From contig NZ_BDAM01000005.1 in NCBI RefSeq assembly GCF_001895045.1, positions 124,001 through 188,000 on the forward strand: a stretch of DNA of 64,000 nt. Reading direction: 5' to 3'. The translations under genes and the position numbers were made by a program. The stretch's first letter is position 1. The number at the start of each line of letters is the position of its first letter. This DNA comes from Rhodococcus coprophilus NBRC 100603 (GTDB lineage Bacteria > Actinomycetota > Actinomycetes > Mycobacteriales > Mycobacteriaceae). A model generated the notes under the pieces. It saw only the letters and a list, made by a program, of their open reading frames with translations. It was not told the origin of the DNA and searched no databases. Below are positions 8,360-22,007 of the stretch, in pieces.

Positions 8360-8360
8360 C

Positions 8361-8940: not shown

Positions 8941-10338
8941 ATGGTCTCACCGCACCCCGTCGACACGAGACTGCCGGTCTTCCGGCAATTCGCGTTCGGA
9001 CTCCAGCACGTCCTCATCATGTACACCGGATGTATCACCGTCCCACTCGTGTTCGGCGCTGCGGTCGGCCTCGACCAAGACACCATCGCGATGCTCATCA
9101 GCGCCGACCTGCTCATCGCAGGCCTGATCACCATCGTGCAGAGCTTGGGTGTCGGGAAACTCGCCGGTGTGCGGCTGCCGATCGTGTGCGGCGCCACCTT
9201 CGCGGGACTGACCCCGATGATCCTGATCGCGAAGGAGTACGGACTCCAAGCGGTCTACGGTTCCATGCTCGTCGGTGGCATCATCGGCCTCGCGCTGGCG
9301 TGGCCGTTCGCCACGATCATCCGGTTCTTCCCCCCTCTCGTCACCGGTGCGGTGCTCACCGTCGTCGGTATCTCGCTGATCGGTGTCGCCGGCGGTCTGA
9401 TCGTCGGCAGCGACCCCTCCTCGCCGACCTACGGCTCACCCGCCGGCATCCTGCTCGCTGTCCTCGTCATCGCCGTTGCCATCGGATTCCTCTGCCTCGG
9501 CCGGGGCATCTGGGCGCAACTCGGTGTGCTGATCGCACTCGTCGTCGGTACTGTTGCCGCTGCCCCGCTGGGCATGATCGACCTCAGCGGTGTCGCCGGT
9601 TCGTCCTGGGTGGGTCTGCCGTCTCCGTTCCACTTCGGGGCTCCGGAGTTCCCGATCACCGCCGTCGTCGCCATGAGCATCGTCATGGCGGTCGTCTTCG
9701 CCGAGTCCACCGCGAGCATGCTCGCGGTCAGCGAGATCACCGGAAAACGGGTGTCGAAGGGTGACATCGCCCGCGGTCTCGCCGGCGATGGTGCATCGGC
9801 CGTGCTGGGTGGCATCTTCAACGCGTTCGTCGACACTGTCTTCACCCAGAATGTCGGGGCCGTCGCCACCACCCGGGTGTACAGCCGTTACGTCACCGCG
9901 ACATCGGGTGCGATCCTGGTGGTGCTCGGCGCTCTGCCGAAGGTGAGTTCCGTGGTCGCCGGACTGCCGAAGCCCGTGGTCGGCGGTGTGGGCATGATCC
10001 TGTTCGCGACGGTCGCGCTGGTCGGCATCAACACGTTGCGGTCGGTGGACCTGTCGGACCGGATCAACTCCACCATCGCGGCCGTCGCAGTCGGTGTGGG
10101 TCTGCTGCCCGAACTTTCCGAAGGACTGTTCGCCAGGTTCCCGTCGTCGGCGCAGATCCTCCTCGGCAGCGGAATCACGTTGGCCGCCATCACCGCATTC
10201 TCGCTGAACCTGCTCTTCAACCACACTCGGCTCGGGAAAGTGGCGCGCGCCTCGTCCCGGCCCGGCGCGGCGGCCCCCGATACCTCGGCCGAGCTTCCTT
10301 CCCCCGTAGGAGTTGTACGTGAGCCCGCAACCGTCTGA
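8941..10338 (+). CDS. NCS2 (nucleobase:cation symporter-2) permease, purine type
   Basis: 465 aa with about 14 hydrophobic segments. Family signatures are the N-terminal FGLQHVLIMYTGCITVP, LPIVCGATFAGLTPMI, FAESTASMLAVSEITG (substrate-binding Glu of helix 8) and FTQNVGAVATTRVYSRYV (the NCS2 motif QNxGxxxxTxxxSR). The QNVG...SRYV form is that of xanthine/uric acid permeases more than of uracil permeases. ATG 8941 is preceded by GGGAG 7 nt upstream. The gene overlaps the oxygenase start by 20 nt and begins a three-gene operon. Confidence 0.93.
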   Translation: MVSPHPVDTRLPVFRQFAFGLQHVLIMYTGCITVPLVFGAAVGLDQDTIAMLISADLLIAGLITIVQSLGVGKLAGVRLPIVCGATFAGLTPMILIAKEYGLQAVYGSMLVGGIIGLALAWPFATIIRFFPPLVTGAVLTVVGISLIGVAGGLIVGSDPSSPTYGSPAGILLAVLVIAVAIGFLCLGRGIWAQLGVLIALVVGTVAAAPLGMIDLSGVAGSSWVGLPSPFHFGAPEFPITAVVAMSIVMAVVFAESTASMLAVSEITGKRVSKGDIARGLAGDGASAVLGGIFNAFVDTVFTQNVGAVATTRVYSRYVTATSGAILVVLGALPKVSSVVAGLPKPVVGGVGMILFATVALVGINTLRSVDLSDRINSTIAAVAVGVGLLPELSEGLFARFPSSAQILLGSGITLAAITAFSLNLLFNHTRLGKVARASSRPGAAAPDTSAELPSPVGVVREPATV

Positions 10339-11374
10339 GTCGTTCGAAGTCCCCACCGTCGACATCACCCCCTACGTGCAAGGTGGCGGCGCCGACGACC
10401 GTGCCAAGGTGGCTCGTGCGATCGACGACGCGTGCTCACGGGTCGGCTTCATCCAGATCCTCGGCCACGGAATCCCGGATACGGTGATCGACGGACTCAC
10501 CGCGGCCGTCGACGACTTCTTCGGTCTGCCGATGGAGGTCAAGCGCGAATATCGCGTCGTGGGAGCGAATCGCGGTTACAGCCCGCCGAAGAGCGAGTCG
10601 CTCAGCCTGAGCCTCGGTGTCGAGTCGGCGACCCGCATGAACGACTTCTTCGAGGCATACAACGTCGGAACCGAAGCGCGTTCGTTCCCGGATCTGGACC
10701 TGTCCGAAGACGACTACGGGCTCAACCTCTGGCCCGACGTGCCGGGATTCGAGGATCGCGTGCAGGCGTACTACGCCGAGGCCGGCCGCGTCGCCCGCAC
10801 GCTCACGCGCATCTTCGCCGACGCGCTCGGGCAACCGTCGGAGTTCTTCGCCGGCCTCACCGACCATTCGATCGACGTGTTGCGGATGAACAACTACGCC
10901 CTTCCCGAAGGCACCGTGGACCTCGACGGTGATCTCACCGGCATGGGTGAGCACACCGACTTCGGAATCCTCACCGTGCTGTGGGCGGATCGGGTGGAAG
11001 GTCTGCAGGTGCTCGGCCGGGACGGGATCTGGCACGACGTGTCCCCGCTGCCGGGAGCGCTGCTCGTCAATCTCGGCGATCTCACCGCCCGCATCACCGA
11101 CGACCACTGGATGTCCACGCTGCATCGGGTCAAGCCGCCCGTCGTCGACGGACGCATCCGACGTCGTCGGTCGGTGGCGTACTTCCACGACGGCAACGTC
11201 GACGCGGTCGTGTCCACCCTGCCGGAATACGCGGGGCCGAATCCGTACGAGCCGGTCCTCGTACGCGATCACATCAAGGCGAAGCTCGCCGGCTCCCGGC
11301 ACGGCAAGAAGAACACCGCGGCTGAACGGGAAGCCGCGCGGGTGCTCGCCGCGGCGGGAGAGACCCGGTCGTGA
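10319..11374 (+). CDS. 2-oxoglutarate/Fe(II)-dependent oxygenase (isopenicillin N synthase-like superfamily)
   Basis: 351 aa, cytoplasmic. The N-terminal DIOX_N domain starts VPTVDITPYV and includes GFIQILGHGIP. The catalytic double-stranded beta-helix has His212-x-Asp214 in GEHTDFGILT, His269 in MSTLHRV and the Arg-x-Ser co-substrate clamp near 283-285. All metal and 2OG ligands are therefore intact. GTG 10319 is chosen because AGGAG (10308-10312) is 6 nt upstream; TTG at 10313 is too close to it. Thymine-7-hydroxylase belongs to this superfamily, and the upstream NCS2 permease makes a nucleobase substrate plausible. The actual substrate is unknown. Confidence 0.88.
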   Translation: MSPQPSESFEVPTVDITPYVQGGGADDRAKVARAIDDACSRVGFIQILGHGIPDTVIDGLTAAVDDFFGLPMEVKREYRVVGANRGYSPPKSESLSLSLGVESATRMNDFFEAYNVGTEARSFPDLDLSEDDYGLNLWPDVPGFEDRVQAYYAEAGRVARTLTRIFADALGQPSEFFAGLTDHSIDVLRMNNYALPEGTVDLDGDLTGMGEHTDFGILTVLWADRVEGLQVLGRDGIWHDVSPLPGALLVNLGDLTARITDDHWMSTLHRVKPPVVDGRIRRRRSVAYFHDGNVDAVVSTLPEYAGPNPYEPVLVRDHIKAKLAGSRHGKKNTAAEREAARVLAAAGETRS

Positions 11375-12132
11375 GCCATGTCGTCCTCGTCCACGGGGCA
11401 TGGGCGGGCAGCTGGGTCTGGGACACGGTGACGGGACCACTGCTCGCGGCAGGGCATACACCGCACGCGCTGTCGCTGCCCGGCGTGGGCCGATGGAGTG
11501 ACGGCGACGTCACGCTCGACGACGTTGCCGGGCACGTCGCCGAGTATGTCGACGGACTCGAGGGCACCGTGGTCGTCGTCGGGCACTCCGGCGGCGGCAT
11601 CGTGGCGACGCAGGTCGCGGAGATGATGCCCGACCGCGTCGGCGGAGTCGCGTACGTGGCGGGAATGATGCTGCCTTCCGGCGTCGATTTCGGGCAATTG
11701 TGTGACGGTCTGGGACTCGAACCGCCGGTGGGGATCTCGAAGTGGTTGCAGGCCACTGCCGACGGTCGCGGAACCGTGGTGCCACCCGAAGCCGCTGCGG
11801 CGGTCTTCTTCCACGAGGCCGATGCCGTCGACGCGATCGAGGCGGCGCGCAGACTGCGTCCGCAACTCGAGACTGCGCGGCTCATGGCGCCCACCTGGAC
11901 GGCGGATCGATTCGGATCGCTGCCGAGGCTGTACATCGAGGCGATACGTGACCGTTCGGTCCCGCTCGTCGCGCAGAGGGAGATGCAGCGGCTCGTTCCG
12001 GGAGCGACGGTCGTGAGCCTGGACGCCGACCATGCTCCTCAGTTGTCGGCAAGCGCCGAACTTGCGGAGGCGCTCGTCGAGTGGTGCTCGACAGTGCGGC
12101 GTGCCCCAGCCGTGGGCGTGGGGTTGCGGTAG
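11371..12132 (+). CDS. Alpha/beta hydrolase
   Basis: 253 aa, compact alpha/beta-hydrolase fold of the plant methylesterase / EstC type. The oxyanion motif is LVHGAWAGSWVWD at the N-terminus, the nucleophile elbow is VGHSGGG, and the catalytic His lies in DADHAPQLS close to the C-terminus. The acid is probably in the IRDRSVPL segment. The GTG start overlaps the oxygenase stop (GTGA), so it is translated with the permease/oxygenase pair. It may hydrolyse an ester or amide formed or exposed by the oxygenase, but this is inferred only from context. Confidence 0.85.
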   Translation: MSHVVLVHGAWAGSWVWDTVTGPLLAAGHTPHALSLPGVGRWSDGDVTLDDVAGHVAEYVDGLEGTVVVVGHSGGGIVATQVAEMMPDRVGGVAYVAGMMLPSGVDFGQLCDGLGLEPPVGISKWLQATADGRGTVVPPEAAAAVFFHEADAVDAIEAARRLRPQLETARLMAPTWTADRFGSLPRLYIEAIRDRSVPLVAQREMQRLVPGATVVSLDADHAPQLSASAELAEALVEWCSTVRRAPAVGVGLR

Positions 12133-12170
12133 GGCGGCGATACCGGCGCCGGGTGCCGGCGAGCCGCAGG

Positions 12171-12199
12171 TTTGCTCCCTACCTTCCGGAAGGTAGGCT
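12171..12199 (+). promoter_or_regulatory. Promoter of the ABC exporter/TetR operon, probably leaderless
   Basis: A -10 like TAGGCT (12194-12199) is preceded by TTTGCT (12171-12176) at 17 nt, or TTGCTC at 16 nt. The GTG start at 12206 lies 6 nt after the -10, so transcription would begin at or next to the start codon. No Shine-Dalgarno is present, which agrees with a leaderless mRNA. Confidence 0.5.
12178..12197. promoter_or_regulatory. 20-bp perfect palindrome, likely TetR operator
   Basis: CCTACCTTCC is followed directly by its reverse complement GGAAGGTAGG. The palindrome fills the spacer between the -35 and -10 elements and overlaps the -10, the classic geometry for repression. The operon it precedes ends in a TetR-family gene (13969-14541), which is the obvious candidate to bind it and autoregulate. 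Sequence and placement are seen; binding is inferred. Confidence 0.75.
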
Positions 12200-12205
12200 G
12201 GCGTC

Positions 12206-13141
12206 GTGCCCACTTCATCCGCGATCGAAATTCACGCCCTGACCAAGTCCTACGGTGACCGAGTCGTCCTCGACGACGTATCGGTCGATGTCGCCCGCGG
12301 AAGTCGCACGATCGTCCTCGGTCCCAACGGCGCAGGAAAATCCACCCTGCTGGAGATCATCGCGACCATCCGCACCCCGACCTCGGGAACTGTTCGCATC
12401 GAGGGCCACGATTCCCGCGAACACCTGCGGGATGCACGACGTTCGATCGGACTCACGCCCCAGTCGAACGCGCTCGATCCGCTTGCCACCCCGACGGAGA
12501 TCTTCGAGTTCCAGGCCTCCGCGCTCGGAATGGGCCGGCGAGCGGCGCGCGTGCGCGCCCGCGAACTCGTCGAACTGTTCGGGCTCGGAGATCACTGCCG
12601 CAAACGGATCGCGCAGTTGTCGGGCGGCACCCGGCGCAAGGTCGATCTGGCGGTCGCACTGGTAGGCGAACCGCCCGTCATCGTCCTCGACGAACCGACG
12701 ACAGGACTGGACCCCCTCGCCCGTCTGGATTTCTGGAACGAGTTGACGCGACTGAACGATACCGACCCGGACCGGACTCTGCTGGTTTCCACCCAGGACC
12801 TGCACGAAGCGGAAGTCCTGGCGACGGACATCGTGGTTCTACGAGACGGCCGGGTCGTCGCGCACGATGCGCCCGACACGCTCAAAGGGCGGGTCGGTGA
12901 GCGCACGCTCACCCTCGCAATGGCGGATCCGGCTTCCGCACAACACCTGATCACGAAGTCCCGTACGGCCTTTCAGGCGGAAGCGCGAGCAGAAGACCTC
13001 GTTCGGCTCGCCCTACCGCAGGACTCGAACGTGCTCGAGACCGCCCTGGAGGACATCGGTGCCATGGCAGGAGCGGTGCGTGAAATCAGGCTGTCGGAAC
13101 CCTCTCTCGACGACGTGTTCGTTGCACTCGCATCTCGCTGA
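12206..13141 (+). CDS. ABC transporter ATP-binding protein (drug/lipid exporter type)
   Basis: 311 aa. Walker A is GPNGAGKST (about residues 45-53), the signature is QLSGGTRRKVDLAVAL, and Walker B is VIVLDEPTTGLDPLAR. The switch residue is probably the Gln of STQDLHEAE (usually His). A C-terminal extension of about 80 residues is of the kind seen in DrrA/CcmA-like exporters. The GTG start at 12206 follows the -10 directly. It pairs with the permease 30 nt downstream in a two-component (ABC-2) exporter whose substrate is unknown. The TetR gene at the end suggests induction by that substrate. Confidence 0.92.
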   Translation: MPTSSAIEIHALTKSYGDRVVLDDVSVDVARGSRTIVLGPNGAGKSTLLEIIATIRTPTSGTVRIEGHDSREHLRDARRSIGLTPQSNALDPLATPTEIFEFQASALGMGRRAARVRARELVELFGLGDHCRKRIAQLSGGTRRKVDLAVALVGEPPVIVLDEPTTGLDPLARLDFWNELTRLNDTDPDRTLLVSTQDLHEAEVLATDIVVLRDGRVVAHDAPDTLKGRVGERTLTLAMADPASAQHLITKSRTAFQAEARAEDLVRLALPQDSNVLETALEDIGAMAGAVREIRLSEPSLDDVFVALASR

Positions 13142-13171
13142 CACGTCGGCTTCTCCGCTCGAAGGACACGA

Positions 13172-13972
13172 ATGATCTCCACTGCAGCACTTCCCGTTCG
13201 CACACCCGCCGCCATCCCGATCACGGTTGTCGCGGCAGCAACGATTCGCTCGCTCCGCACGCTTCTGCGTTCCCCGGCGCTGCTCATCAGCCCGCTTGCC
13301 CAATCACTGTTCTTTCTGCTCGTGTACACCGGTCAGCTGAGGACCGTCGGAGAGAGCTATCTGCCCGGGGGAAGCTTCATCGCATTTCTCCTGCCACTGA
13401 TCCTCGTCACCGGAGTCGCGACCGGTGCAGGAGCGGCAGGGACCCTAATCCATCAGGACGTATCGAGCGGATATCTCGACCGGCTCCGCATGGCTCACGG
13501 GACGTCCGCGCCGTTTATCGCCGGGACACTCGTCGCCACCCTCGTCGTCGTCGCATTCCAGCAGGTCGTGACCGTCGCAGGCGCCATGCTGGTCGGTTAC
13601 CGCCCGGGGACGCTGTCCGGAATGGTCGCCATGCTCGGTCTCATGATCGTTCTCGGCCTCGCGGTAGCGCTGTTCGCCGTGGCGCTCGCCGTGCGCGGTG
13701 CCTCGGCGTCGAGCATCAACCTGGTCACCCTCGTCGTGTTCGGCCTGTCGTTCTTCACGGGGTTCTTCGCTCCGGTCGAACAGCTTTCCTGGTGGATGCG
13801 TGCACTCGCCACGATCAACCCGATCACCTATCTCGTCGAGACCGCGCGCGATCTCGAAAGCGGGGTCACGCTCGAGGTGGCGCCCATCGCCGCCGTCGTG
13901 CTCGTTACGCTTCTCGTGGCAGGTGCACTTGCCTGTGTCCTGTCGTCGAACCATGCTCGGAGGACCCGATGA
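13172..13972 (+). CDS. ABC-2 type exporter permease
   Basis: 266 aa with six hydrophobic segments (about residues 30-52, 65-95, 110-135, 145-170, 172-200, 235-258). The ABC-2 signature region AVRGASASSINLVTLVVFGLSFFTGFFAPVEQL is typical of DrrB-like permeases, as is WMRALATINPITYLVETAR. ATG at 13172 is preceded by GAAGGA about 8 nt upstream. Its stop overlaps the ATG of the TetR gene. It should form the membrane part of the exporter with the preceding ATPase. Confidence 0.88.
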   Translation: MISTAALPVRTPAAIPITVVAAATIRSLRTLLRSPALLISPLAQSLFFLLVYTGQLRTVGESYLPGGSFIAFLLPLILVTGVATGAGAAGTLIHQDVSSGYLDRLRMAHGTSAPFIAGTLVATLVVVAFQQVVTVAGAMLVGYRPGTLSGMVAMLGLMIVLGLAVALFAVALAVRGASASSINLVTLVVFGLSFFTGFFAPVEQLSWWMRALATINPITYLVETARDLESGVTLEVAPIAAVVLVTLLVAGALACVLSSNHARRTR

Positions 13973-14541
13973 TCGCCGGAACCGATACACGAACGCAGAT
14001 CATGAAGGCGTTCGCCGACCAACTTGCCGCCACCGGTTACGCCGGTATCTCCCTCGTGGGTGTGGCGGGCGATGTCGGAATCCGCAAACCGTCGATCTAC
14101 CACCACTTTCCCGGTGGGAAGGAAGATCTCTACCGGGCAGTGGCCCAGGACTTCATCGAAGGTCTCCACCTGCGCATCCTGGAGGCGATCGGAATCGACG
14201 GACCGCTCGACGATCGTCTGACCGCGCTCGCGGTCGCCTCTTCCGAGTACCACCGGTCCACGATCACATTCGAGCAACGCATCTACGATGCCCTCGACCA
14301 GGTGGGTGACGCGACGCGCGACGAGATTTCCGGGCTCTACGTACGCAGAGTCCTCGAACCGGTGGTCGCTCTGTTCGCCGAGGCCGTCGACAGGAACGAA
14401 CTCACCGGAAAACCCGAGTTCCTGATGAACGCCTTCCTTCATCTCGCGCGTGCGGTGGATTCGGGAGAATCTGCCGAAGCACGACGGATCACGGAGTTGT
14501 TCCTGAACGGCGCACGGCCACGCACCGACGCCGGTCGCTAG
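13969..14541 (+). CDS. TetR/AcrR-family transcriptional regulator
   Basis: 190 aa. The N-terminal helix-turn-helix is at about residues 10-55: TQIMKAFADQLAATGYAGISLVGVA and then IRKPSIYHHFPGGKEDLYRA. The remaining helices form the ligand/dimer domain. ATG 13969 overlaps the permease stop and has GGAGG 7 nt upstream, which decides against longer versions of the frame. It most likely represses its own operon through the palindrome at 12178-12197. Its stop codon overlaps the convergent stop of the adenosine deaminase gene by 4 nt. Confidence 0.92.
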   Translation: MIAGTDTRTQIMKAFADQLAATGYAGISLVGVAGDVGIRKPSIYHHFPGGKEDLYRAVAQDFIEGLHLRILEAIGIDGPLDDRLTALAVASSEYHRSTITFEQRIYDALDQVGDATRDEISGLYVRRVLEPVVALFAEAVDRNELTGKPEFLMNAFLHLARAVDSGESAEARRITELFLNGARPRTDAGR

Positions 14542-15554
14542 AAGGCGCCGCCCCAGGCCGCAGCGAGTCGTGCGCGGAGCGCAGCCTTGTCGTCGTCCGG
14601 TAGCCAGCAGGCGTCGACGGAGCCGATCGCGATGTCGCGCAACTGTTCCGGCGTCACCAGACCTTCTTCGACGACCGTGACGTACTCGTCGCTGATATCG
14701 CGTCCGAGCATCGCCGGGTCGTCGCTGTTGACGGTGACGTGCAGCCCGGCCTCGAGCATGCGCGGCAGGGAATGGTCGCGAACCGACGGATAGACCTGGG
14801 AAATCAGGACGTCCGAGCTGGGGCACAGGGTGAACACGATGCCGCGGTCCGCCGCTTCGGCGGCCAGCGAGGGATCCTCGACGACGAGCGGTCCGTGGTC
14901 GATGCGTTCGCAGCCGAGCACGCGGATCGCGTCGGCGACACTCTGTACGCCGAACTCTCCGGCGTGGTACGTCCGGCGGAGGCCGCGCCGTGCGGCCTCC
15001 GCGAACACAGGAGCCAGTGCGGCGTCGTCGACGCCGGCTTCGATGCCGTCACCCCCGATCCCGACGAGGAAACCGTCGGGATCGGGCAGTGACGTCAGGA
15101 GATCGAGTTCCAGCAGAGCGAGATGGGGACCGAGAAACTTGGTGCAGTCCATGATCATTCGGACACCGATGCCGGTCTCCGCAATTCCGTCTCGCAGCCC
15201 CGCGGTGATCCCGTCCCACAGGTGCGCGGCGGGCACACCCCGGGAGAGATGGACATGCGGGGTGAAGAACATCTCCGTGTAGACGATTCCCGTTGCGGCT
15301 GCGTCGAGCACCGATTCGTACGCGACCCGGTGGAAGTCCGCAGGGGAGACGATCGTGCTGCACACCGTGTCGTACACGTCGAGGAAGTGCCGCAGGTCGC
15401 GGTACGTGTAGAGCGTGCGCACGTCGTCCACGGGCAGTGGCGTGTCGTTGGCCGCGGCGAGTGCATGCACCGTGCCGGGGCGGACGGTGCCCTCGAGGTG
15501 GCGGTGCAGTTCGATCTTGGGCAGCGCCCGCACTGCCTCGAGGGTCACCGTCAT
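14538..15554 (-). CDS. add: Adenosine deaminase family protein
   Basis: 338 aa. This metal-dependent amidohydrolase converts adenosine (or possibly adenine) to inosine (or hypoxanthine). Zinc ligands and catalytic residues are visible: His17-x-His19 in ELHRHLEG, TYHAGEF (His and catalytic Glu), ERIDHG, and NSDDPAML near the C-terminus. The NSDDPA form occurs in adenine deaminases and some adenosine deaminases, so the preferred substrate is not certain. ATG 15554 is chosen because GGAG lies about 8 nt upstream and the preceding gene stops 4 nt before it. Last gene of the nucleoside importer operon. Confidence 0.88.
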   Translation of the reverse strand: MTVTLEAVRALPKIELHRHLEGTVRPGTVHALAAANDTPLPVDDVRTLYTYRDLRHFLDVYDTVCSTIVSPADFHRVAYESVLDAAATGIVYTEMFFTPHVHLSRGVPAAHLWDGITAGLRDGIAETGIGVRMIMDCTKFLGPHLALLELDLLTSLPDPDGFLVGIGGDGIEAGVDDAALAPVFAEAARRGLRRTYHAGEFGVQSVADAIRVLGCERIDHGPLVVEDPSLAAEAADRGIVFTLCPSSDVLISQVYPSVRDHSLPRMLEAGLHVTVNSDDPAMLGRDISDEYVTVVEEGLVTPEQLRDIAIGSVDACWLPDDDKAALRARLAAAWGGAF

Positions 15555-15558
15555 CGGG

Positions 15559-16578
15559 TTACGCTCCGCCCTTGTATTCGACCTCGAACTCACCGGACTT
15601 GATCTTCTCGCGGTATTCCTCGAAGAGAGCCATCGTCTCGGGGGAGACCTTGTCGGCGAACGCGGGGTTCACCGCGACATCGACACCGCCCTCCGCGAAG
15701 TCCACGTCGTAGTACTTGGCGGGGTCGACGTTGCCCGCCTCGACGTCGGCCACCATGGCGCGGAGCACCTCGTCGAGGTTCCACACGATCGAGGACACGA
15801 CGTTCTCGGGGGCGAGCGGCGTCTGGTCCATCGCGTAACCGGCGACTCCCACACCCCGCTGCTTGGCGCCCTCGATCGTGGCCGCGTCGACGCCGCATGT
15901 GGTGAACTGATCGGCACCCTGGTCGACGAGCGCGTTCACGGCCTCGAGGGTCTGGGCCGCAGCATCGGACCACCCGCCGATGTAGGACGGCCGGAGCTGG
16001 ATCTCGCCCGGTCCCTTGTAGCTCAGCCGCGCGCCGTCGGCGAACGATTCGATCTGCGCCTTGCACACCGGGATCTCGAAACCGGCGGTGCCGGCGAGAA
16101 TTCCGGACTCGGTCAGATCGCCGGCGAGGATGCCGGACAGGAAGGACGCCTCGTAGAAGGGCTGGCTGTAGTCGGCGAGGTTGGCGGTGATGTCACCGAA
16201 CCCCCCGGCGTAGGCGAACATCACGTCCGGATAGTCCGCAATGACGCCTTTGATCGGCTCGCCGTAGTTGAACGAGTGTCCGACGATGAGGTTGTGGCCG
16301 TCCTCGGCGAGGTCGGTCACGATCTGCGCGATCTGTTCGGAGGTGGCACCCGAATCCTGCTGCACCACGGTGAGATCGATGAGTCCCTCGGCTTCGAGCT
16401 TCTCGGCACCTTCCACCATGCCCTGGTTCCACCCGAGGTCGTTGACCGGGCCGGAGGTGATGATGGCGGCCTTGACGACGCCGTCGGACGACGACGCTTC
16501 GGATTCCGAACTCGAACATCCGGAGACGGCGACTCCGGCCGCGGCGATCACCGCAACAGCGGTACCCAGTTTCTTCAC
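15559..16578 (-). CDS. BMP-family nucleoside-binding lipoprotein (ABC importer)
   Basis: 339 aa. The signal peptide ends in the lipobox AVSGC with Cys21, so the protein is lipid-anchored outside the membrane. The BMP/PnrA/Med fold is indicated by VKAAIITSGPVNDLGWNQGM, GHSFNYGEPI, PDVMFAYAGG, YIGGWSDAAAQ and GVDAATIEGAKQRGVGVAGYAMDQ. Family members bind purine nucleosides (PnrA, BmpA, NupN). It is followed by the deaminase and preceded by two permease genes, matching a nupNOPQ-type importer. Confidence 0.92.
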   Translation of the reverse strand: MKKLGTAVAVIAAAGVAVSGCSSSESEASSSDGVVKAAIITSGPVNDLGWNQGMVEGAEKLEAEGLIDLTVVQQDSGATSEQIAQIVTDLAEDGHNLIVGHSFNYGEPIKGVIADYPDVMFAYAGGFGDITANLADYSQPFYEASFLSGILAGDLTESGILAGTAGFEIPVCKAQIESFADGARLSYKGPGEIQLRPSYIGGWSDAAAQTLEAVNALVDQGADQFTTCGVDAATIEGAKQRGVGVAGYAMDQTPLAPENVVSSIVWNLDEVLRAMVADVEAGNVDPAKYYDVDFAEGGVDVAVNPAFADKVSPETMALFEEYREKIKSGEFEVEYKGGA

Positions 16579-16639
16579 GTGTTTCTCCTAAGGGAAGGAA
16601 GGCTCGTCGGTACGAGCCCTTGACTCGGGGGAGGGGGAG

Positions 16640-17602
16640 TTATCTGGCTGGGACGAAGGGAACGCCGAGCGACTTGGGGGCGTTGTTGCGGGCGAAACCC
16701 ACGGTGGTCACGACGACGGCGACGAGAGTGACCGCGTAAGGCATCGCCTGGAACAGTTCGTACGGCACCGAGGTGGCCTGACCGCCCGACGCCGCCTGCA
16801 CCCGCAACTGGAATGCGTCGACGAGGCCGAACATGAAACCGCCGGCGATGGCGCCGAGGGGGTTCCACCTCGCCAGGATCACCACACCGAGGGCGATCCA
16901 GCCCCGGCCACCGGTGATGCCGTCCTGGAAGAAGCCGAGGCCGTCGATCACGAGGGCGCCGGCCATACCCGCTGTCGCGCCGGAGATCAGCAGGGTGATC
17001 CAGCGGGTGCGGGGAACCGACACGCCGACCGAATCGGCAGCATCGGGGCTTTCCCCCGCCGCGCGCACGGAGAGTCCGAACGCGGTGCGCGAGAGCACCC
17101 ACCACAGTGCCACCACCAGCAGCAGTGCGGCGTAGACCAGGGGCGACTGTGAGAAGACGATCTGGCCGATCGCCGGAATGTCCGAGAGCACGGGCAAGTC
17201 GACGGGTGTGCTGCCCTGGATGCGCGGGGGTGTGCCCGTGATCCCGAAGACCTGGAGGTAGAGGAACGACGCGAGCCCGGTCCCGAGGATGACCACCGAG
17301 ATACCCGTGATGATCTGGTCGACTGCCATGGTGATCGTCAGATATCCGACGACCGCAGCGGTCAGGAGGCCGGCGAGGGCGCCGGTGACAGCTCCGAACA
17401 GGGGGTTTCCGGTGTAGTAGACGGTGACGAACGCCGTGATGGCGCCGACCATCATCTGGCCTTCGATACCCAGGTTCATGAGGCCGGAACGTTCGGCCAG
17501 GCAGGCTCCCGCAGCCGCGAGGATGATGGGCACCGCGAGGCGCAGCGCCGCTGTGAGCAGGGGGACGAGCGCTCCGGCGCCCAGGACGTCGGACCAGTTC
17601 AT
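16640..17602 (-). CDS. Nucleoside ABC transporter permease (second, NupQ-like)
   Basis: 320 aa with eight to ten hydrophobic segments and the BPD_transp_2 fold. Signature stretches are CLAERSGLMNLGIEGQMMVGA near the N-terminus, VRAAGESPDAADSVGVSV and LVIDGLGFFQDGITGGRGW, all common to the RbsC/NupQ permease family. The ATG overlaps the stop of the first permease (ATGA). A 61-nt gap separates it from the BMP lipoprotein gene; that gap is enough for an RNA processing site that could raise binding-protein levels. Confidence 0.9.
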   Translation of the reverse strand: MNWSDVLGAGALVPLLTAALRLAVPIILAAAGACLAERSGLMNLGIEGQMMVGAITAFVTVYYTGNPLFGAVTGALAGLLTAAVVGYLTITMAVDQIITGISVVILGTGLASFLYLQVFGITGTPPRIQGSTPVDLPVLSDIPAIGQIVFSQSPLVYAALLLVVALWWVLSRTAFGLSVRAAGESPDAADSVGVSVPRTRWITLLISGATAGMAGALVIDGLGFFQDGITGGRGWIALGVVILARWNPLGAIAGGFMFGLVDAFQLRVQAASGGQATSVPYELFQAMPYAVTLVAVVVTTVGFARNNAPKSLGVPFVPAR

Positions 17603-18678
17603 CGGGCACGCTCCACGATTCGATTGGCGAGCAACACCGTCAGGATCATCACGGCCTGCACGACGGTGCCGATCGAGGCCGGGATCTCCTGGGTGCGCTG
17701 AACGGCCTGGCTACCGAGCGTCAGACCCGAGACGAGGGCCGCCGCAAGGACGATGCCGAACGGATTCCGCCGTCCGAGCAGGGCTACCACGATCGCGGTG
17801 AAACCGATGCCCGAGGAGACGGCGAGCGACAGGCGGAACTCGCTGCCGAGCAACATGATCGCTCCGGCGATGCCACCGAGCGCGCCGCTGACGAGTGCCG
17901 AGGTGACGATGGTGCGGGCGACCGAGATACCGTTTGCCGCAGCCACACTGGGGCTCTCACCGACGATCTGGGACGAGAACCCGAACCGGGTGGAGCGCAT
18001 CAGCCACCAGACCAGCGGGACCGCTGCGACAGCCACGAACACGCCGATGTGGATGCGTGTGCCCGGAATGGTAGCCAGGGCCGCCCAGTCGGGGATGCGT
18101 TCGGATTCGGGAGTGAAGCCGTTGGGGTTGGCGAGAGGTTTGCGGACGGCCCAGGCCAGGGCGTAGAAGACGAGGTAGTTGAGCATGAGCGAGGAGATGA
18201 TCTCGTTCACGCCCAGTCGCGATTTCAGGACGCCGGCGATACCGCCGATGCAGGCGCCGGCAGCGGCGGCGGTGACGGCCACGACGGGAATCGCCACCCA
18301 GGAGGTACCGAGCGGAATGCTCAGGACCACGGCCGCAGCGGTGATGGCTCCCACGTCGTAATGACCCTGTGCGCCGATCGTGATGAAGCCTGTGCGGTAG
18401 GCGATCGCGTAGCCCAGGCCCATGAGCACCAGCGGTGTCATGCCGGTGAGCAGACGTCCGAGCTGGGTGTCGCCGCCGAGTGCGGCGTTCAGCATCGTCG
18501 CGTAGGCCTGTCCGGGGTTGCCACCGGCGAGGACGATCAGTACCGCGCCGACAGCGAGACCCACGACCACGGCGAGGAACGGGATCCCGACGGTGGTCAG
18601 GAGGCCGCGCAGGCGCGAGCTCGTCGCCGGGTCCGGTGTCGGTGCCGCCGTCGGCGGACTCAGCACGTCAGTGCTCAT
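17599..18678 (-). CDS. Nucleoside ABC transporter permease (first, NupP-like)
   Basis: 359 aa, multi-pass membrane protein. Signatures are AYRTGFITIGAQGHYDVGAITA, LGVNEIISSLMLNYLVFY and GESPSVAAANGISVARTIV. The long cytoplasmic N-terminus (about 25 residues rich in Pro/Thr) is typical of NupP-like proteins. The ATG at 18678 overlaps the ATPase stop (ATGA), which sets the start; the much longer upstream open frame is an antisense-like shadow of the ATPase gene. Confidence 0.9.
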   Translation of the reverse strand: MSTDVLSPPTAAPTPDPATSSRLRGLLTTVGIPFLAVVVGLAVGAVLIVLAGGNPGQAYATMLNAALGGDTQLGRLLTGMTPLVLMGLGYAIAYRTGFITIGAQGHYDVGAITAAAVVLSIPLGTSWVAIPVVAVTAAAAGACIGGIAGVLKSRLGVNEIISSLMLNYLVFYALAWAVRKPLANPNGFTPESERIPDWAALATIPGTRIHIGVFVAVAAVPLVWWLMRSTRFGFSSQIVGESPSVAAANGISVARTIVTSALVSGALGGIAGAIMLLGSEFRLSLAVSSGIGFTAIVVALLGRRNPFGIVLAAALVSGLTLGSQAVQRTQEIPASIGTVVQAVMILTVLLANRIVERAR

Positions 18679-20231
18679 GCCGCCACTTCCTGGAATCCGC
18701 CCATCGCGGAACCGAGAGCCTCCCGGTCGAACGGGCCCTTGTCGAATTCCGCGACGATGCGGCCGCGATACAGGACGACGACGCGGTCTGCGAGACTGCA
18801 GATCTCGTCGAGGTCCGAGGAGATCAGCAGGATCGCGGCACCCCGTGCCCGGTGTTCGACGAGGGTGTCCCACACGAACTCGGTGGCCCCGACGTCGAGA
18901 CCTCGGGTGGGCTGGGCGACGACCAGTACGTCCGGAGCACCGTCGAGAACCCGGCCGAGCACCACACGCTGGGCGTGACCGCCGGACAGCGTGCCCGCGA
19001 GCGTACGTGGGCTCGAGGCCTTCACCGAGAGCGCCGCGATGATGCGTTCGGCTCGGTCTCGGATGGCGTTGCGGGACAATCGTCCCCCGCGGCGGGCGAG
19101 GGGAGGGGTGGTGTAGCTGTCGACTGCGAGATTCGTGTCGATGCCGAGTGATTTCACCAGGCCGCGGGTATAGCGGTCGGACGGAACGATGCCGACCCCG
19201 GCGTCGCGGAGCGAGCGCGGACTGGAGATGTCGACCTCCTTGTCGGCGATGCGCACCGCACCGGACGGATCGGCGGCAAGACCGGAGAGCACGTCCTCGA
19301 GCGCGGACTGTCCGTTGCCCTCGACGCCGGCCACCGCGACCAGTTGGCCGGCCCCCACCCGCAGGGTCACCTCGTCCAGCTTTCCGGGTACCGAGACCCC
19401 GACGAGTTCGAGCATGCGTCCTCCGGACGGTTCGGAAGCGGCCCGCCGGATGCCGAGTCCGACGTCGCGGCCCACCATGTCGCGGGCGAGTTCGGCGGTG
19501 GTGACCTCGGCGACCGGCTTCTCGGCCACGAGCCTTCCTCCGCGGAGGACGCCGACCCGGTCGGCCGCTTCGAGTACTTCTTCGAGGTGATGCGTGATGA
19601 GCACGATTCCGACACCCCGCTCGACCGCCAGATCCCGAATCTGCGCGAGCAGTGAATGCACCTCCGCTGGAGCGAGATTCGCGGTCGGTTCGTCGAGGAG
19701 CAGATAGCGGGCTCCGAGGTGGAGGGCACGAAGGATCTCGACGCGCTGTTGCTCGCCCACCGACAGCGTGTCGACGCGTGCCGCGGGGTTGCAGGCCAGG
19801 CCGGTTTCGGCTGCCAGCGTGGAGATTTCGTCGCACGTGCGGCGCAGCCGTCCCCGGCCGACGACTCCCCGCGAGCGCCCGAGCAGGAAGTTCTCGGCGA
19901 CCGTCATCGACGGTACGAGCATGAAATGCTGGTGCACCATCGCGATGCGGTCGCGGCCCCCGGCGTCGAGCGACCGATCGTCGACGGTGACGGTGCCCGC
20001 ATCCGGAGGTAGCAGTCCGGTGAGAATCCGCATCAGCGTGGACTTTCCGGCACCGTTCTCGCCGAGGAGTGCGTATACCTCGCCGGGCCGAATGTGGAGC
20101 GAGACGTCTCGGAGGACGATGTTGTCTCCGAACGACCGCGCGATGCCCTGCATCACGACGCCGTCGTCGGCGCCGGGGAGTTCGGTCGCCGGTGCGATGG
20201 TGATGCGGGATGTAGAAGCTGGTGTCACCAT
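18675..20231 (-). CDS. Nucleoside ABC transporter ATP-binding protein with two NBDs (NupO-like)
   Basis: 518 aa with two fused nucleotide-binding domains. The first has Walker A GENGAGKST, signature LSVGEQQRVEIL and Walker B LLLDEPTANL. The second has a degenerate Walker A, GVEGNGQSA, as is usual in this family, and signature LSGGHAQRVVLG. The domain order and degeneracy match RbsA/NupO-type importer ATPases. ATG 20231 is chosen, with GGAAGG about 10 nt upstream and the homologous region starting soon after. First gene of the operon, divergent from the XRE-cupin regulator across about 150 nt that holds the candidate operator. Confidence 0.9.
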   Translation of the reverse strand: MVTPASTSRITIAPATELPGADDGVVMQGIARSFGDNIVLRDVSLHIRPGEVYALLGENGAGKSTLMRILTGLLPPDAGTVTVDDRSLDAGGRDRIAMVHQHFMLVPSMTVAENFLLGRSRGVVGRGRLRRTCDEISTLAAETGLACNPAARVDTLSVGEQQRVEILRALHLGARYLLLDEPTANLAPAEVHSLLAQIRDLAVERGVGIVLITHHLEEVLEAADRVGVLRGGRLVAEKPVAEVTTAELARDMVGRDVGLGIRRAASEPSGGRMLELVGVSVPGKLDEVTLRVGAGQLVAVAGVEGNGQSALEDVLSGLAADPSGAVRIADKEVDISSPRSLRDAGVGIVPSDRYTRGLVKSLGIDTNLAVDSYTTPPLARRGGRLSRNAIRDRAERIIAALSVKASSPRTLAGTLSGGHAQRVVLGRVLDGAPDVLVVAQPTRGLDVGATEFVWDTLVEHRARGAAILLISSDLDEICSLADRVVVLYRGRIVAEFDKGPFDREALGSAMGGFQEVAA

Positions 20232-20342
20232 TCGGTGTGACCTTCCGAGTAATTCGCTATTTGTTAAGGCGAGACGATCCAGGGTCCGGGTTGAGAGACC
20301 ATGTCCGATCCGTGACGTTTGTGTTTCAGGGTTCGGAAAACG

Positions 20343-20360
20343 GTTTCGTTTGTACGAAAC
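20343..20360. promoter_or_regulatory. Candidate operator of the XRE-cupin regulator
   Basis: Inverted repeat GTTTCGT-TTGT-ACGAAAC (7-bp perfect arms, 4-bp spacer). It lies in the divergent region between the nucleoside importer operon and the regulator gene, 22 nt before the chosen GTG. A single half-site ACGAAAC recurs at 20983-20989, before the second oxygenase. Probably an autoregulatory and importer-control site. Confidence 0.6.
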
Positions 20361-20381
20361 ATGCGACGTGGAGGGGGAGAT

Positions 20382-20981
20382 GTGACACCGGAAGAACACG
20401 ATCGGGTTGCCCGGGTCGGACGAGCTGTTCGTGTCGCTCGCAGACAGGCAGGACTCAGTGCTCGTACGCTGGCGGCGCGCGCCGGGATCAGCCAGGCGTT
20501 CCTGAGCCAGGTCGAGCGCGGTCTCAACGTGCCGTCGCTTGCGTCCCTGTACAAGATCGCCGACGCGCTGGATTGCTCACCGTCGTATTTCCTCGACGCG
20601 CCGTCGGACGGGGAGGTGCTGGTGGTGCGGGCGGATCGGCGAAGTGCCCGGTCGGTGACCAGTGCTCCCAGTACACCGAACGTGTGGGTGGCGCAGGGAA
20701 ACGGAGCGATAGCCGAGGTGTACCAGTACGTCATACGGCCCGGCGACGACGTCGAAGGCTGGTTTCGCCGCGCGGACGACCTCGTCCTCGTAGTGGTGAG
20801 CGGCTGTCTCGAGGTGCAGGTGCGTGGCCGTGCTCCGGTCCTTCTCGACGTGGGCGACTGCCTGTTCGCTGTTGCCGGCACCGAGATGCGTTGGGAACAC
20901 CGGGGAGTGGAAGACGTGCGGGTGGTGCTGTGTGTGGCGATGCCGGGAGCGCGCCCCGTAACACGGTCCTCACCGGCGTGA
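20382..20981 (+). CDS. XRE-family regulator with C-terminal cupin domain
   Basis: 199 aa. The helix-turn-helix is at about residues 10-65 (LSARTLAARAGISQAFLSQVERGLNVPSLASLYKIADALDC). The C-terminal half is a small beta-barrel: PGDDVEGWFRRADDLVLVVVSGCLEVQVRGRAPVLLDVGD and later FAVAGTEMRWEHRG, the cupin sensor domain. GTG 20382 is favoured because GGAGG (20370-20374) lies 7 nt upstream; ATG 20361 is the alternative and would place the start against the operator. It sits between the importer operon and the second oxygenase, so it is the likely local regulator responding to a small ligand such as a nucleobase. Confidence 0.85.
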   Translation: MTPEEHDRVARVGRAVRVARRQAGLSARTLAARAGISQAFLSQVERGLNVPSLASLYKIADALDCSPSYFLDAPSDGEVLVVRADRRSARSVTSAPSTPNVWVAQGNGAIAEVYQYVIRPGDDVEGWFRRADDLVLVVVSGCLEVQVRGRAPVLLDVGDCLFAVAGTEMRWEHRGVEDVRVVLCVAMPGARPVTRSSPA

Positions 20982-21050
20982 GACGAAACGGCAGCATCGC
21001 GGGAATTAACTGATAGCGATCATCTCGCAACCTGCCTTCAGGAGAACCAC

Positions 21051-22007
21051 ATGGACACCCTCCCCGTCATCGACCTGCGGCCGTTGCGCGACGGGAGCGA
21101 TCCCCGCGGTGTCGCCGACGCGCTCGACGCCGCCTGCACCGACCTCGGCTTCTTCGTCGTCACCGGCCACGGACTCGACCCCGAACTTCGTACCGAGACC
21201 ATGGAACAGGCGCGCCGATTCTTCGCGCTGCCGTTCGAGGAGAAGATGGCGATTTCGATCGCGAAGTCGTCGTGCCACAGCGGATATGTGCCGTCCAAGG
21301 CCGAAACCCTCGACGACGCGCTCGGCGCCGACGCCAAGGAAGCGCTCGACATCACCTACGACCGGGGCACCGATCATCCGGAGGTCATCGCCGGGACGCC
21401 ACTGCACGGGCCGGCACAGTGGCCGTCCGCACTCATGCCGGCATTCAAGAGTGTGGCCGACGAGTACGCCCACGCCTGCCTCGAGATCAACACACATCTG
21501 ATGCGCGGTATCGCACTGGCGCTCGGTTTGGCGCCCGGGGCATTCGAGCCGATGTTCACCGATCCGATCGCCTCGCTGCGGATGCTGCACTACGCACCGG
21601 CCGGCCCGGGAGAAGTCGCGCCGGGTGCAGGTGCGCACACCGACTACGGCTCCCTGACGCTGCTCGCACAGGACGACGTCGGAGGGCTCCAGGTCGCGGC
21701 GCGCGGCGGAGGTTGGATCGATGTCGTCACCCCACCGGATGCGCTCATCGTCAACCTCGGCGACATGATCGCCCGCTGGACCAACCACCGTTACGTGTCC
21801 ACACGGCACCGTGTGCTGAATCCGGTGGGGCAGCACCGCTATTCGCTTCCGTACTTCGTCGCTCCGGATTTTCATGCGGTTATCGAGGCGATCCCGACGT
21901 GCGTGGAACCCGGGACGGAACCGATCTATCCGCCCGTCACCGCCGGTGAATACATGTTGTCGCGGTTCGATGCGACGCACGATTACCTCAAGACGAAAGC
22001 GTCGTGA
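21051..22007 (+). CDS. 2-oxoglutarate/Fe(II)-dependent oxygenase, second copy type
   Basis: 318 aa, isopenicillin-N-synthase-like superfamily. DIOX_N starts LPVIDLRPL and contains GFFVVTGHGLD. Fe ligands are His196-x-Asp198 (AGAHTDYGSLTLL) and His253 (VSTRHRV). The 2OG clamp is Arg263-x-Ser265 (HRYSLPYF). All ligands are present. It is clearly related to, but not a recent duplicate of, the oxygenase at 10319. ATG has AGGAGAA at the right spacing. It follows the XRE-cupin gene by 69 nt, in which ACGAAAC recurs. Substrate unknown; thymine-7-hydroxylase-like activity on a nucleobase is a context-based guess. Confidence 0.88.
   Translation: MDTLPVIDLRPLRDGSDPRGVADALDAACTDLGFFVVTGHGLDPELRTETMEQARRFFALPFEEKMAISIAKSSCHSGYVPSKAETLDDALGADAKEALDITYDRGTDHPEVIAGTPLHGPAQWPSALMPAFKSVADEYAHACLEINTHLMRGIALALGLAPGAFEPMFTDPIASLRMLHYAPAGPGEVAPGAGAHTDYGSLTLLAQDDVGGLQVAARGGGWIDVVTPPDALIVNLGDMIARWTNHRYVSTRHRVLNPVGQHRYSLPYFVAPDFHAVIEAIPTCVEPGTEPIYPPVTAGEYMLSRFDATHDYLKTKAS

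Follow-up and report, generated by a model that had tools for sequence, protein, structure and literature searches.

Results

Gene content of the region

The window analyzed here is a stretch of 64,000 nucleotides from Rhodococcus coprophilus NBRC 100603 (contig NZ_BDAM01000005.1). Between positions 8941 and 22007 it holds the following genes.

8941 to 10338, + strand: NCS2 nucleobase:cation symporter of the PbuX (xanthine permease) type, first gene of operon A (PF00860, 1.3e-79)
10319 to 11374, + strand: OxyA, an IPNS-like 2OG/Fe(II) oxygenase (PF14226, DIOX_N, and PF03171, 2OG-FeII_Oxy, both over cut-off)
11371 to 12132, + strand: alpha/beta hydrolase (PF12697, 1.4e-24)
12206 to 14541, + strand: ABC exporter and TetR unit (ATPase 12206 to 13141, membrane protein 13172 to 13972, TetR 13969 to 14541)
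14538 to 15554, − strand: A_deaminase of the HAGE type, ADA (PF00962, 6.8e-72)
15559 to 16578, − strand: BMP/PnrA substrate-binding lipoprotein (PF02608)
16640 to 17602, − strand: ABC importer permease (PF02653)
17599 to 18660, − strand: ABC importer permease (PF02653)
18675 to 20264, − strand: ABC importer ATPase with two ATP-binding domains (PF00005, two stretches)
20361 to 20981, + strand: XRE-cupin regulator (PF01381 over cut-off; PF07883, cupin, weak and below the Pfam cut-off)
21051 to 22007, + strand: OxyB, an IPNS-like 2OG/Fe(II) oxygenase of a clade other than OxyA's (PF03171, 1.9e-24, over cut-off)

An earlier note on this DNA had named the NCS2 permease, two oxygenases, hydrolase, BMP importer, adenosine deaminase and XRE-cupin regulator, and profile matches confirmed all of them in position and family. 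The metal-binding HxD...H and 2OG-binding RxS motifs were likewise intact in both OxyA and OxyB. The note had also described the exporter/TetR unit as the only interruption of the run; the exporter does interrupt it, but so does the deaminase gene. This unit lies between module A (NCS2 permease, OxyA, and hydrolase) and module B (BMP importer, XRE-cupin regulator, and OxyB), and we do not regard it as part of the system.

The permease passed the TIGR03173 pbuX model (424.4 bits versus a cut-off of 414.15), and the overlaps between the NCS2 and OxyA genes (20 bp) and between the OxyA and hydrolase genes (4 bp) suggest that the three are translationally coupled. The XRE-cupin gene, for which GTG 20382 is an alternative start, is divergent from the BMP importer and ends 69 bp upstream of OxyB; the true start of the importer ATPase is probably near 20231. 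Four PF03171 matches were found in the whole 4.55 Mb genome, two of them 10.7 kb apart, and by our own arithmetic roughly 3% of random placements would bring a pair that close.

Genomic context of OxyA

Allantoin genes (allantoinase-allantoicase) stood directly before NCS2-OxyA in 9 of the 14 OxyA genomes of the genus, and in two genomes (G007 and G008) xanthine dehydrogenase (XDH) came directly after the alpha/beta hydrolase. R. wratislaviensis, R. jostii, and R. opacus carry a longer run on one strand, with NCS2, OxyA, and the alpha/beta hydrolase followed by an amidohydrolase, OHCU decarboxylase, HIUH, uricase, a purine-type deaminase, and XDH. OxyA sits inside actinobacterial urate/allantoin degradation clusters (in Rhodococcus, Dietzia, and G284), whereas we know of no step in the textbook urate/allantoin pathway for which a 2OG oxygenase or this hydrolase would be required. 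As further support for a purine link, deaminases of three families are neighbors of OxyA in different lineages. The linkage to urate-pathway genes was seen in relatives; no urate-pathway gene was mapped within the stretch studied, and the window's genome has its uricase and XDH on another contig (C7).

Neighbors within 7.5 kb were counted at 80 named OxyA loci, the best 80 of 449 relatives and therefore a sample weighted to Rhodococcus, using marker proteins taken from loci of the same kind as those counted. With these markers, a urate-path gene was found at 21/80 loci versus 2/40 random stretches, an XRE-cupin gene at 27/80 versus 0/40, and relatives of the alpha/beta hydrolase at 28/80 versus 0/40. 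The deaminase marker was found at 9 of the 80 loci, and 33 had no marker neighbor at all. In a sample of 20 OxyA loci across the order there was no enrichment of urate-path genes (1/20 versus 2/40 random stretches) and no clear excess of urate, deaminase, or permease genes taken together (4/20 versus 4/40).

Although co-occurrence is confounded by ancestry, in the genus OxyA was present in 12 of 13 genomes having both uricase and XDH (the fragmentary draft G009 included) and intact in none of the five without them (p = 7e-4). Counting as present the OxyA of G013, whose reading frame is cut short by 24 codons (stop at codon 337 of 361), made this one of five (p = 0.008). G001 has uricase and XDH without OxyA. 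Across the order, with the same confounding, uricase was found in 40/43 OxyA genomes versus 96/255 others; G098, G189, and G111 had OxyA and no uricase match.

Fold and pocket of OxyA

The HxD...H triad and RxS were invariant in all 102 rows of the OxyA alignment. When the OxyA model was searched with Foldseek, the top 11 chains were all thymine-7-hydroxylase (T7H; Neurospora crassa, PDB 5c3p-5c3s), with a best E of 1.1e-27. T7H was the best structural match (VIA Z 34.9, rmsd 2.0), with SpoC (33.5) and PaIPNS (32.6) close behind, and gibberellin- and antibiotic-type enzymes scored below it. Besides the metal and 2OG ligands, OxyA keeps the base-contacting Asn (N84, T7H N87; 101/102 rows), the Arg bridging substrate and 2OG (R189, T7H R190; 101/102), the stacking Phe (F289, T7H F292; 102/102), and a Phe or Tyr at position 215 (T7H Y217; 102/102). 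The F, Y, and R of this T7H-type base site also occur in OxyB and PaIPNS.

The resemblance of OxyA to T7H, which the earlier note had named as a member of the superfamily, covers the fold and most of the base site, but not two substrate-site residues: the position of E122 is Asn in 100/102 rows and that of N294 is Asp in 102/102. The two proteins share 25 to 28% identity, and in trees T7H, on a long branch each time, fell on the OxyA side once and on the OxyB side once. Unlike T7H, OxyA is bacterial and its partners, where informative, are purine rather than pyrimidine genes.

The closest PDB sequences of both OxyA and OxyB are PaIPNS (Pseudomonas aeruginosa, 6jyv), which has Trp in place of the base-contacting Asn of OxyA, and the resurrected Anc357 (9ovh). 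PaIPNS binds 2OG, and its function is reported as unknown (PMC12329707). Together, near-clade context, uricase/XDH co-occurrence, fold, and pocket residues support a purine link for OxyA.

OxyB and its neighbors

In trees, OxyA and OxyB formed two separate clades within the IPNS-like 2OG/Fe(II) superfamily. The predicted model of OxyB had a mean pLDDT of 58.6, too low for a fold comparison. A distant OxyB in G768 shares its strand with genes for a BMP protein, an ATPase, and two permeases, an importer similar to that of the window, and the nearest solved relatives of the window's BMP protein are AtzT, solved with guanine, and 3s99, with adenine modelled.

In six of the nine OxyB genomes of the genus, a Rieske-type oxygenase gene was found within 2 kb of OxyB. 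This oxygenase, with its GST and Rieske neighbors, is homologous to genes of the Pseudomonas plasmid pPp1290, in a cluster where a PbuX xanthine permease is joined by HpxO, by an oxygenase of the NdmA-like kind, and by two others that resemble OxyB. The arrangement recalls the caffeine N-demethylase set NdmABCDE, since a Rieske-less oxygenase with GST and Rieske genes stands beside OxyB in relatives and the pPp1290 homologues stand with the NdmA-like protein. However, Ndm enzymes are Rieske oxygenases whereas OxyA and OxyB are of the 2OG type, and among PDB entries the oxygenase beside OxyB in relatives resembles SxtT more closely than NdmA. The NdmC-like, Rieske-less oxygenase had no counterpart in the window's genome at E ≤ 1e-30, a search of the window alone gave no GST or Rieske part of such a module, and G003 has the Rieske-type oxygenase without OxyB. 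A purine link for OxyB has moderate support, from the N-demethylase-like neighbors and from the BMP-importer operon of a single distant lineage.

Relationship between the two modules

Modules A and B abut directly in four genomes (G004, G005, G010, and G015), with neither exporter nor ADA between them, which supports the conclusion that the two halves belong together. All nine genus genomes with OxyB also carry OxyA. The earlier note had suggested co-occurrence of the two operons across Rhodococcus as a check; for the oxygenases this was found from OxyB to OxyA but not in the other direction, with OxyB absent from 5 of the 14 OxyA genomes. In two genomes the halves are separated, by 17 kb in G014 and by 40 kb in G017.

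That separation, the missing OxyB, the different clades of the two oxygenases, and the genes for a TPP enzyme, a GMC oxidoreductase, and an aldehyde dehydrogenase that adjoin OxyB in relatives would all fit unrelated halves, with module A in purine catabolism and OxyB and the BMP importer serving another heterocycle. We consider this unlikely, given the abutment, the presence of OxyA in every OxyB genome, the XDH genes that adjoin OxyB in G004 and G014, and the purines bound by the nearest solved relatives of the BMP importer.

Discussion

We propose, with about even confidence, that the region contains two purine-oxidation modules, which would take up and oxidize a modified purine, probably one that is N-methylated. 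The substrate of OxyA is very likely a purine base and that of OxyB probably one too, and the two modules may well serve one diet. The earlier proposal that the cluster imports and oxidizes a modified purine or pyrimidine finds partial support and is narrowed to purines, on good grounds for OxyA and moderate ones for OxyB. Counting against one tightly knit system are the genomes with OxyA but no OxyB, the local nature of the deaminase, and the separated halves of G014 and G017.

In the proposed scheme, module A would import a purine base unable to enter the xanthine dehydrogenase/uricase route directly. With 2OG, Fe(II), and O2, OxyA would hydroxylate a small group on this base. The likeliest target is an N-methyl group, which would then leave as formaldehyde, and the product would pass into the xanthine/urate route, whose genes lie elsewhere in the genome. 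Module B would act likewise on a related purine, methylated or modified in some other way, presumably under its XRE-cupin regulator, a type that also flanks OxyA in other genomes. The choice of oxidative N-demethylation over ring hydroxylation is tentative.

Ring hydroxylation would make OxyA a molybdenum-free counterpart of one XDH step, acting at C8 or C2 of an ordinary purine, for example from guanine to 8-oxoguanine, which an 8-oxoguanine deaminase would then process. The deaminase in the OxyA run of R. wratislaviensis, the sole copy tested, scored over the 8-oxoguanine deaminase cut-off (676 versus 532 bits), it has homologues in the runs of R. jostii and R. opacus, and deaminases of three families adjoin OxyA in different lineages. 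However, 15 of the 18 genus genomes, among them that of the window, gave XDH matches (partial ones in G002 and G013), which would make the step redundant in them, and T7H, the nearest fold relative, oxidizes a methyl group; we judge ring hydroxylation distinctly unlikely.

Deaminases also bear on the idea that the modules act on N6-substituted adenines (cytokinins or N6-methyladenine), with side-chain removal to adenine and deamination to hypoxanthine. A_deaminase genes lie close to OxyA in Mycobacterium (L127 and L144), Mycolicibacterium (L147), Nocardia (L175), Aeromicrobium (L164), Actinocorallia (L119), and three order genomes (L083, L085, and L087). The window's ADA, whose HRHLEG motif fits HxHxEG, is nearest among solved structures to the 3ou8/3pan/3pao group (3ou8, 5.8e-49) and 3rys (2e-45), which we take to be of the adenine-deaminase type, followed by 4gxw (2.6e-41) and 6n9m (1.4e-40), presumably other bacterial entries, and the mammalian type (1.7e-28). 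Yet the OxyA-adjacent deaminases that were aligned are 26 to 37% identical to it, four of six with HSES instead of HAGE, and the deaminase marker occurred at just 9 of the 80 loci, which makes this reading quite improbable. Among the mapped genus stretches, ADA lies beside the BMP operon solely in the window's genome and G012; it is a local addition, and we rejected it as a core member for the genus.

It is highly improbable that OxyA is a bacterial pyrimidine oxygenase, either a true thymine-7-hydroxylase or an oxidase of methylated pyrimidines: T7H is its nearest structure and Asn84, Arg189, Phe/Tyr215, and Phe289 match the T7H base site, but two substrate-site residues differ, the permease is of the PbuX type, and many informative partners (uricase, allantoin genes, and XDH) are purine-specific. 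We also rejected the idea that the two oxygenases replace XDH, since both XDH and uricase are present in the genome of the window.

Returning to the modified-purine reading, our results point to an undescribed oxidation step, with relatives of both oxygenases near purine-breakdown genes in several bacterial groups. Purine breakdown is usually seen as solved, yet an oxygenase with no assigned function is embedded in its genes in soil actinobacteria, and PaIPNS, the nearest bacterial relative of known structure, likewise has no known function. The best-ranked matches in the open PMC library included no paper on a 2OG oxygenase in bacterial purine clusters, which is weak evidence of absence, as many matches ranked lower and subscription journals lie mostly outside that literature. 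P. aeruginosa PA0147 is, we assume, linked with the adenine deaminase PA0148, a link on which the best-ranked matches yielded nothing. With modified purines as a defined class of candidate substrates, both OxyA and PaIPNS become testable, with relevance to caffeine and methylpurine turnover and to such oxygenases as biocatalysts.

More speculatively, OxyA, OxyB, and their sister clades (Oxy2, and an oxygenase common to Gordonia L162 and pPp1290) could form a 2OG toolkit that strips or oxidizes the groups attached to modified purines, and would be to O2 and 2OG chemistry what the caffeine demethylases are to Rieske chemistry. In Actinobacteria and on a Pseudomonas plasmid, pairs of its members would be combined anew with permeases of the xanthine type, XRE-cupin regulators, and base deaminases; in Alphaproteobacteria they would occur singly.

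The divergent promoter between the importer and XRE-cupin genes contains a palindrome, GTTTCGT-N4-ACGAAAC, at 20343 to 20360, which is perfect in the window (0.19 expected). As a candidate operator it was dropped, its degenerate form having matched none of seven other genus stretches. A near-copy with two changes is present in G012.

Gene content of the window

Open reading frames were found at the positions claimed by the earlier note, and its gene families were confirmed by Pfam and NCBIfam. Module A consists of an NCS2 permease above the PbuX cut-off (NCBIfam/Pfam scan), OxyA (10319-11374; a DIOX_N/2OG-FeII_Oxy oxygenase in the Pfam scan) and an alpha/beta hydrolase, and module B of an importer (BMP lipoprotein, two BPD_transp_2 permeases and a double ATPase; Pfam/NCBIfam), an XRE-cupin regulator whose cupin match was sub-threshold, and OxyB (21051-22007), with a PF03171 match. 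The window also encodes an A_deaminase (ADA; Pfam/NCBIfam). The metal ligands and RxS motif are intact in both oxygenases, as had been stated. The 4.55-Mb genome (30 contigs) holds four PF03171 matches, two of them 10.7 kb apart, in the window. Ahead of module A (7155-8735) we noted a ClpP1-ClpP2 pair and, convergent to it, a regulator with weak, sub-threshold similarity to ClgR. Since aldolase and allantoin genes lie between the ClgR-like regulator and NCS2 in the compared genome G008, they were probably lost from this gap in the window's lineage.

Neighbourhoods of OxyA

The earlier note had proposed that the cluster oxidizes a modified nucleobase. This idea was borne out in the near relatives, where it could be narrowed to purines; in a wider sample of the order, urate-pathway genes were as rare as in random stretches. 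Modified (N-methylated) purines would be the most economical substrate; chemistry, substrate and a common diet for OxyA and OxyB are inferred.

In the genus sample (18 genomes, including that of the window), OxyA orthologues were found in 14. Allantoinase and allantoicase genes lie directly upstream of NCS2-OxyA in 9 of these 14, preceded by a DUF6986 aldolase gene in eight genomes, all those whose stretch extends far enough. Xanthine dehydrogenase (XDH) genes follow the hydrolase in G007 and G008 and adjoin OxyB in G004 and G014. A public-genome scan gave 449 OxyA relatives, the best 80 of which were kept as named loci. Rhodococcus wratislaviensis, R. jostii and R. opacus carry, on one strand, NCS2, OxyA, hydrolase, amidohydrolase, OHCU decarboxylase, HIU hydrolase, uricase, deaminase and XDH (genes were called for the first two species); the R. 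wratislaviensis deaminase passed the 8-oxoguanine deaminase cut-off (676 versus 532 bits). OxyA is accompanied by allantoin genes in Dietzia, by a divergent uricase in Nocardia, and by a BMP importer, biuret-amidohydrolase-type enzymes and allophanate hydrolase in two Rhodobacterales MAGs (families checked for locus L149). In Mycobacterium and Mycolicibacterium, consecutive genes encode XRE-cupin, NCS1 permease, an additional oxygenase (Oxy2), A_deaminase and OxyA. A set of XRE regulator, NCS2, OxyA, Oxy2 and a VOC protein occurs in Gordonia sputi and on a plasmid of Rhodococcus qingshengii.

Oxy2 copies adjoining OxyA (locus:coordinates)
L127:8003-8968
L144:8003-8968
L147:8020-8985
L099:10178-11149
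L128:3738-4709
L150:11072-12058

An A_deaminase subfamily with HSES instead of HAGE also adjoins OxyA (L085:6919-8010, L127:8965-10002, L144:8965-10002 and L175:10572-11582). In Nonomuraea and Streptomyces, OxyA follows genes for a GMC oxidoreductase, a protein of cytidine-deaminase fold and a TIM-barrel protein; this row, with a xylose-isomerase-like barrel (L116:6825-11053 and L123:6899-11041), is possibly a nucleoside-sugar variant of the system. OxyA at 70 to 73% identity was seen in Alphaproteobacteria (L140, L141, L145, L149, L152, L153, L155 and L156; six MAGs and two others). The two placed in trees, L149 and L155, nest within the actinobacterial clade, which suggests horizontal transfer.

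Markers were counted within 7.5 kb of OxyA and compared with random 17-kb stretches of OxyA-bearing genomes.

Loci with each marker (80 named loci; 20 order-sample loci; 40 random stretches)
Urate-pathway gene: 21; 1; 2
XRE-cupin: 27; 6; 0
Hydrolase: 28; 0; 0
Base permease: 26; 1; 1
Any urate-pathway, deaminase or permease gene: 33; 4; 4

Counted by genus label, a nucleobase marker was present in 12 of 27, and 33 of the 80 named loci had no marker of any sort. Because the reference proteins were taken from such neighbourhoods and the 80 loci are the closest relatives, this enrichment is to be read as a property of OxyA's near clade. In the wider order sample XRE-cupin stands out, and an NMT1-type importer less clearly (5/20 versus 1/40 random).

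Of the 13 genus genomes carrying both uricase and XDH (including the fragmentary draft G009), 12 have OxyA, the exception being G001; of the five without them, none has an intact OxyA (Fisher p = 7e-4; 1/5 and p = 0.008 if the late-truncated OxyA of G013 is counted as present). XDH matches were partial in G002 and G013, with a truncated uricase match in the same frame as the XDH piece, as in a fused remnant (G002, contig C1, ~64743-68343; G013, contig C2, ~2449010-2452611). These remnants and the damaged neighbouring OxyA, the only two such copies among the 14 (split between frames with a TAG in G002; stop at codon 337 of 361, 24 codons early, in G013), represent joint decay of the island. Across the order (298 genomes), uricase was found in 40 of 43 OxyA genomes versus 96 of 255 others (p = 2e-12, inflated by shared ancestry); G098, G189 and G111 have OxyA and gave no uricase match.

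Linkage of the two modules

OxyB orthologues (at least 78% identity) were found in 9 of the 18 genus genomes, all nine with OxyA. In G004, G005, G010 and G015, module A and the importer operon are direct neighbours, hydrolase next to BMP, and OxyB comes after the importer; exporter, TetR and ADA are missing there, and an XRE-cupin match was seen in three of the four. Hydrolase and BMP genes are also adjacent in a fragmentary fifth genome, Rhodococcus sp. JCM 9791 (L108), where the contig ends within the permeases. Exporter, TetR and ADA separate the modules in the window's genome and in G012 (there across a contig break), and the modules lie 17 kb apart in G014 and 40 kb apart in G017. These arrangements suggest that the exporter and ADA were inserted locally and that the modules are old neighbours, although OxyA also occurs without OxyB. 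The co-occurrence of the two operons, a check proposed earlier, holds in part, and the exporter/TetR unit, previously taken as the only interruption, does lie between the modules but shares that place with ADA.

Distribution and neighbours of OxyB

At E <= 1e-70, OxyB was found in none of the 297 other order-sample genomes. A phylum sample (346 genomes) gave relatives at 48 to 50% identity in five others, all of one family. In one, G768, OxyB, BMP, ATPase and both permeases lie on one strand (importer parts 41, 44, 39 and 42% identical), adjoining a protein that resembles cytosine deaminase but scores under the threshold for that family (202 versus 403 bits). Among the few genes scanned beside OxyB in three of the other four, nothing telling was seen (MFS transporters, an SHMT-like protein); in the fourth (L226), OxyB was missed in the gene calls. 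Two alphaproteobacterial relatives (L100, L101) occur with an ABC importer, an amidohydrolase and a creatininase-family protein, the L101 amidohydrolase being a cytosine deaminase (607 bits; cut-off 403). No clear purine context was seen for plasmid relatives in Mesorhizobium, Sinorhizobium, Komagataeibacter and Klebsiella.

Six of the nine OxyB genomes have a gene for a Rieske-less oxygenase no more than 2 kb from OxyB; this gene was not found in the window's genome, G004 or G014, and G003 carries it but has no OxyB. It is accompanied by aldehyde dehydrogenase and GMC genes in all five stretches read, and also by GST and Rieske genes wherever the stretch reaches far enough (four stretches). 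Between XDH and OxyB, G004 retains a GMC oxidoreductase remnant (L046:7493-7666; 58 residues, 83% identity), a putative trace of a lost Rieske/GST module, the rest of which is absent from that genome.

The OxyB-linked oxygenase, GST and Rieske parts match genes of the Pseudomonas putida plasmid pPp1290 (40, 33 and 33% identity). This locus (L233; NZ_CP039372.1 27374-40778) has NdmA-like and Rieske-less oxygenases, GST and reductase genes, a PbuX permease (518 bits), the FAD urate hydroxylase HpxO (566 bits, cut-off 500) and a pair of IPNS-like 2OG oxygenases that share 42 and 38% identity with OxyB; the first of the pair is 61% identical to an oxygenase adjoining OxyA in Gordonia desulfuricans. 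The best PDB match of the NdmA-like oxygenase was the methylxanthine N1-demethylase NdmA (2.3e-44), with SxtDIOX a close second (6.3e-43). NdmCDE converts 7-methylxanthine to xanthine, NdmE being a GST homologue (PMC8055839). The pPp1290 set is likely a methylpurine cluster.

Fold, pocket and partner proteins

The solved structures closest to the window's deaminase are 3ou8 and 3rys, which we take to be adenine deaminases. The window's BMP protein is nearest to AtzT and 3s99, the former crystallized with guanine and the latter modelled with adenine (PMC6834077). Among PDB entries, the P. aeruginosa protein PaIPNS is close in sequence to both oxygenases; it binds 2OG, and its function is reported as not known (PMC12329707).

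Comparison with thymine-7-hydroxylase (T7H), advised earlier, gave it as the best fold match of the OxyA model (mean pLDDT 81.5; top 11 Foldseek chains; VIA Z 34.9), closely followed by SpoC (33.5), 3oox (33.2) and PaIPNS (32.6). With T7H substrate residues from PMC4787775, N87 corresponds to Asn84 in 101 of 102 OxyA rows, and also in L101, but to His in OxyB, Trp in PaIPNS, Arg in TraH and Gly in Oxy2. R190 is kept in 101/102 rows, F292 in 102/102 and Y217 (as Phe/Tyr) in 102/102, equivalents that are widespread in the superfamily. Asn takes the place of E122 in 100/102 rows, and Asp that of N294 in 102/102. OxyA thus looks like a base oxygenase, yet is not classed as T7H. In trees, OxyA, OxyB and Oxy2 formed one clade each (supports 100/99, 99/96 and 100/100 in one tree), and the position of T7H shifted between trees. 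In Oxy2, Leu replaces the 2OG-binding Arg of RxS in both rows checked (L099, L127), and in one Mycobacterium copy, L127, the metal-ligand motif reads HxN rather than HxD.
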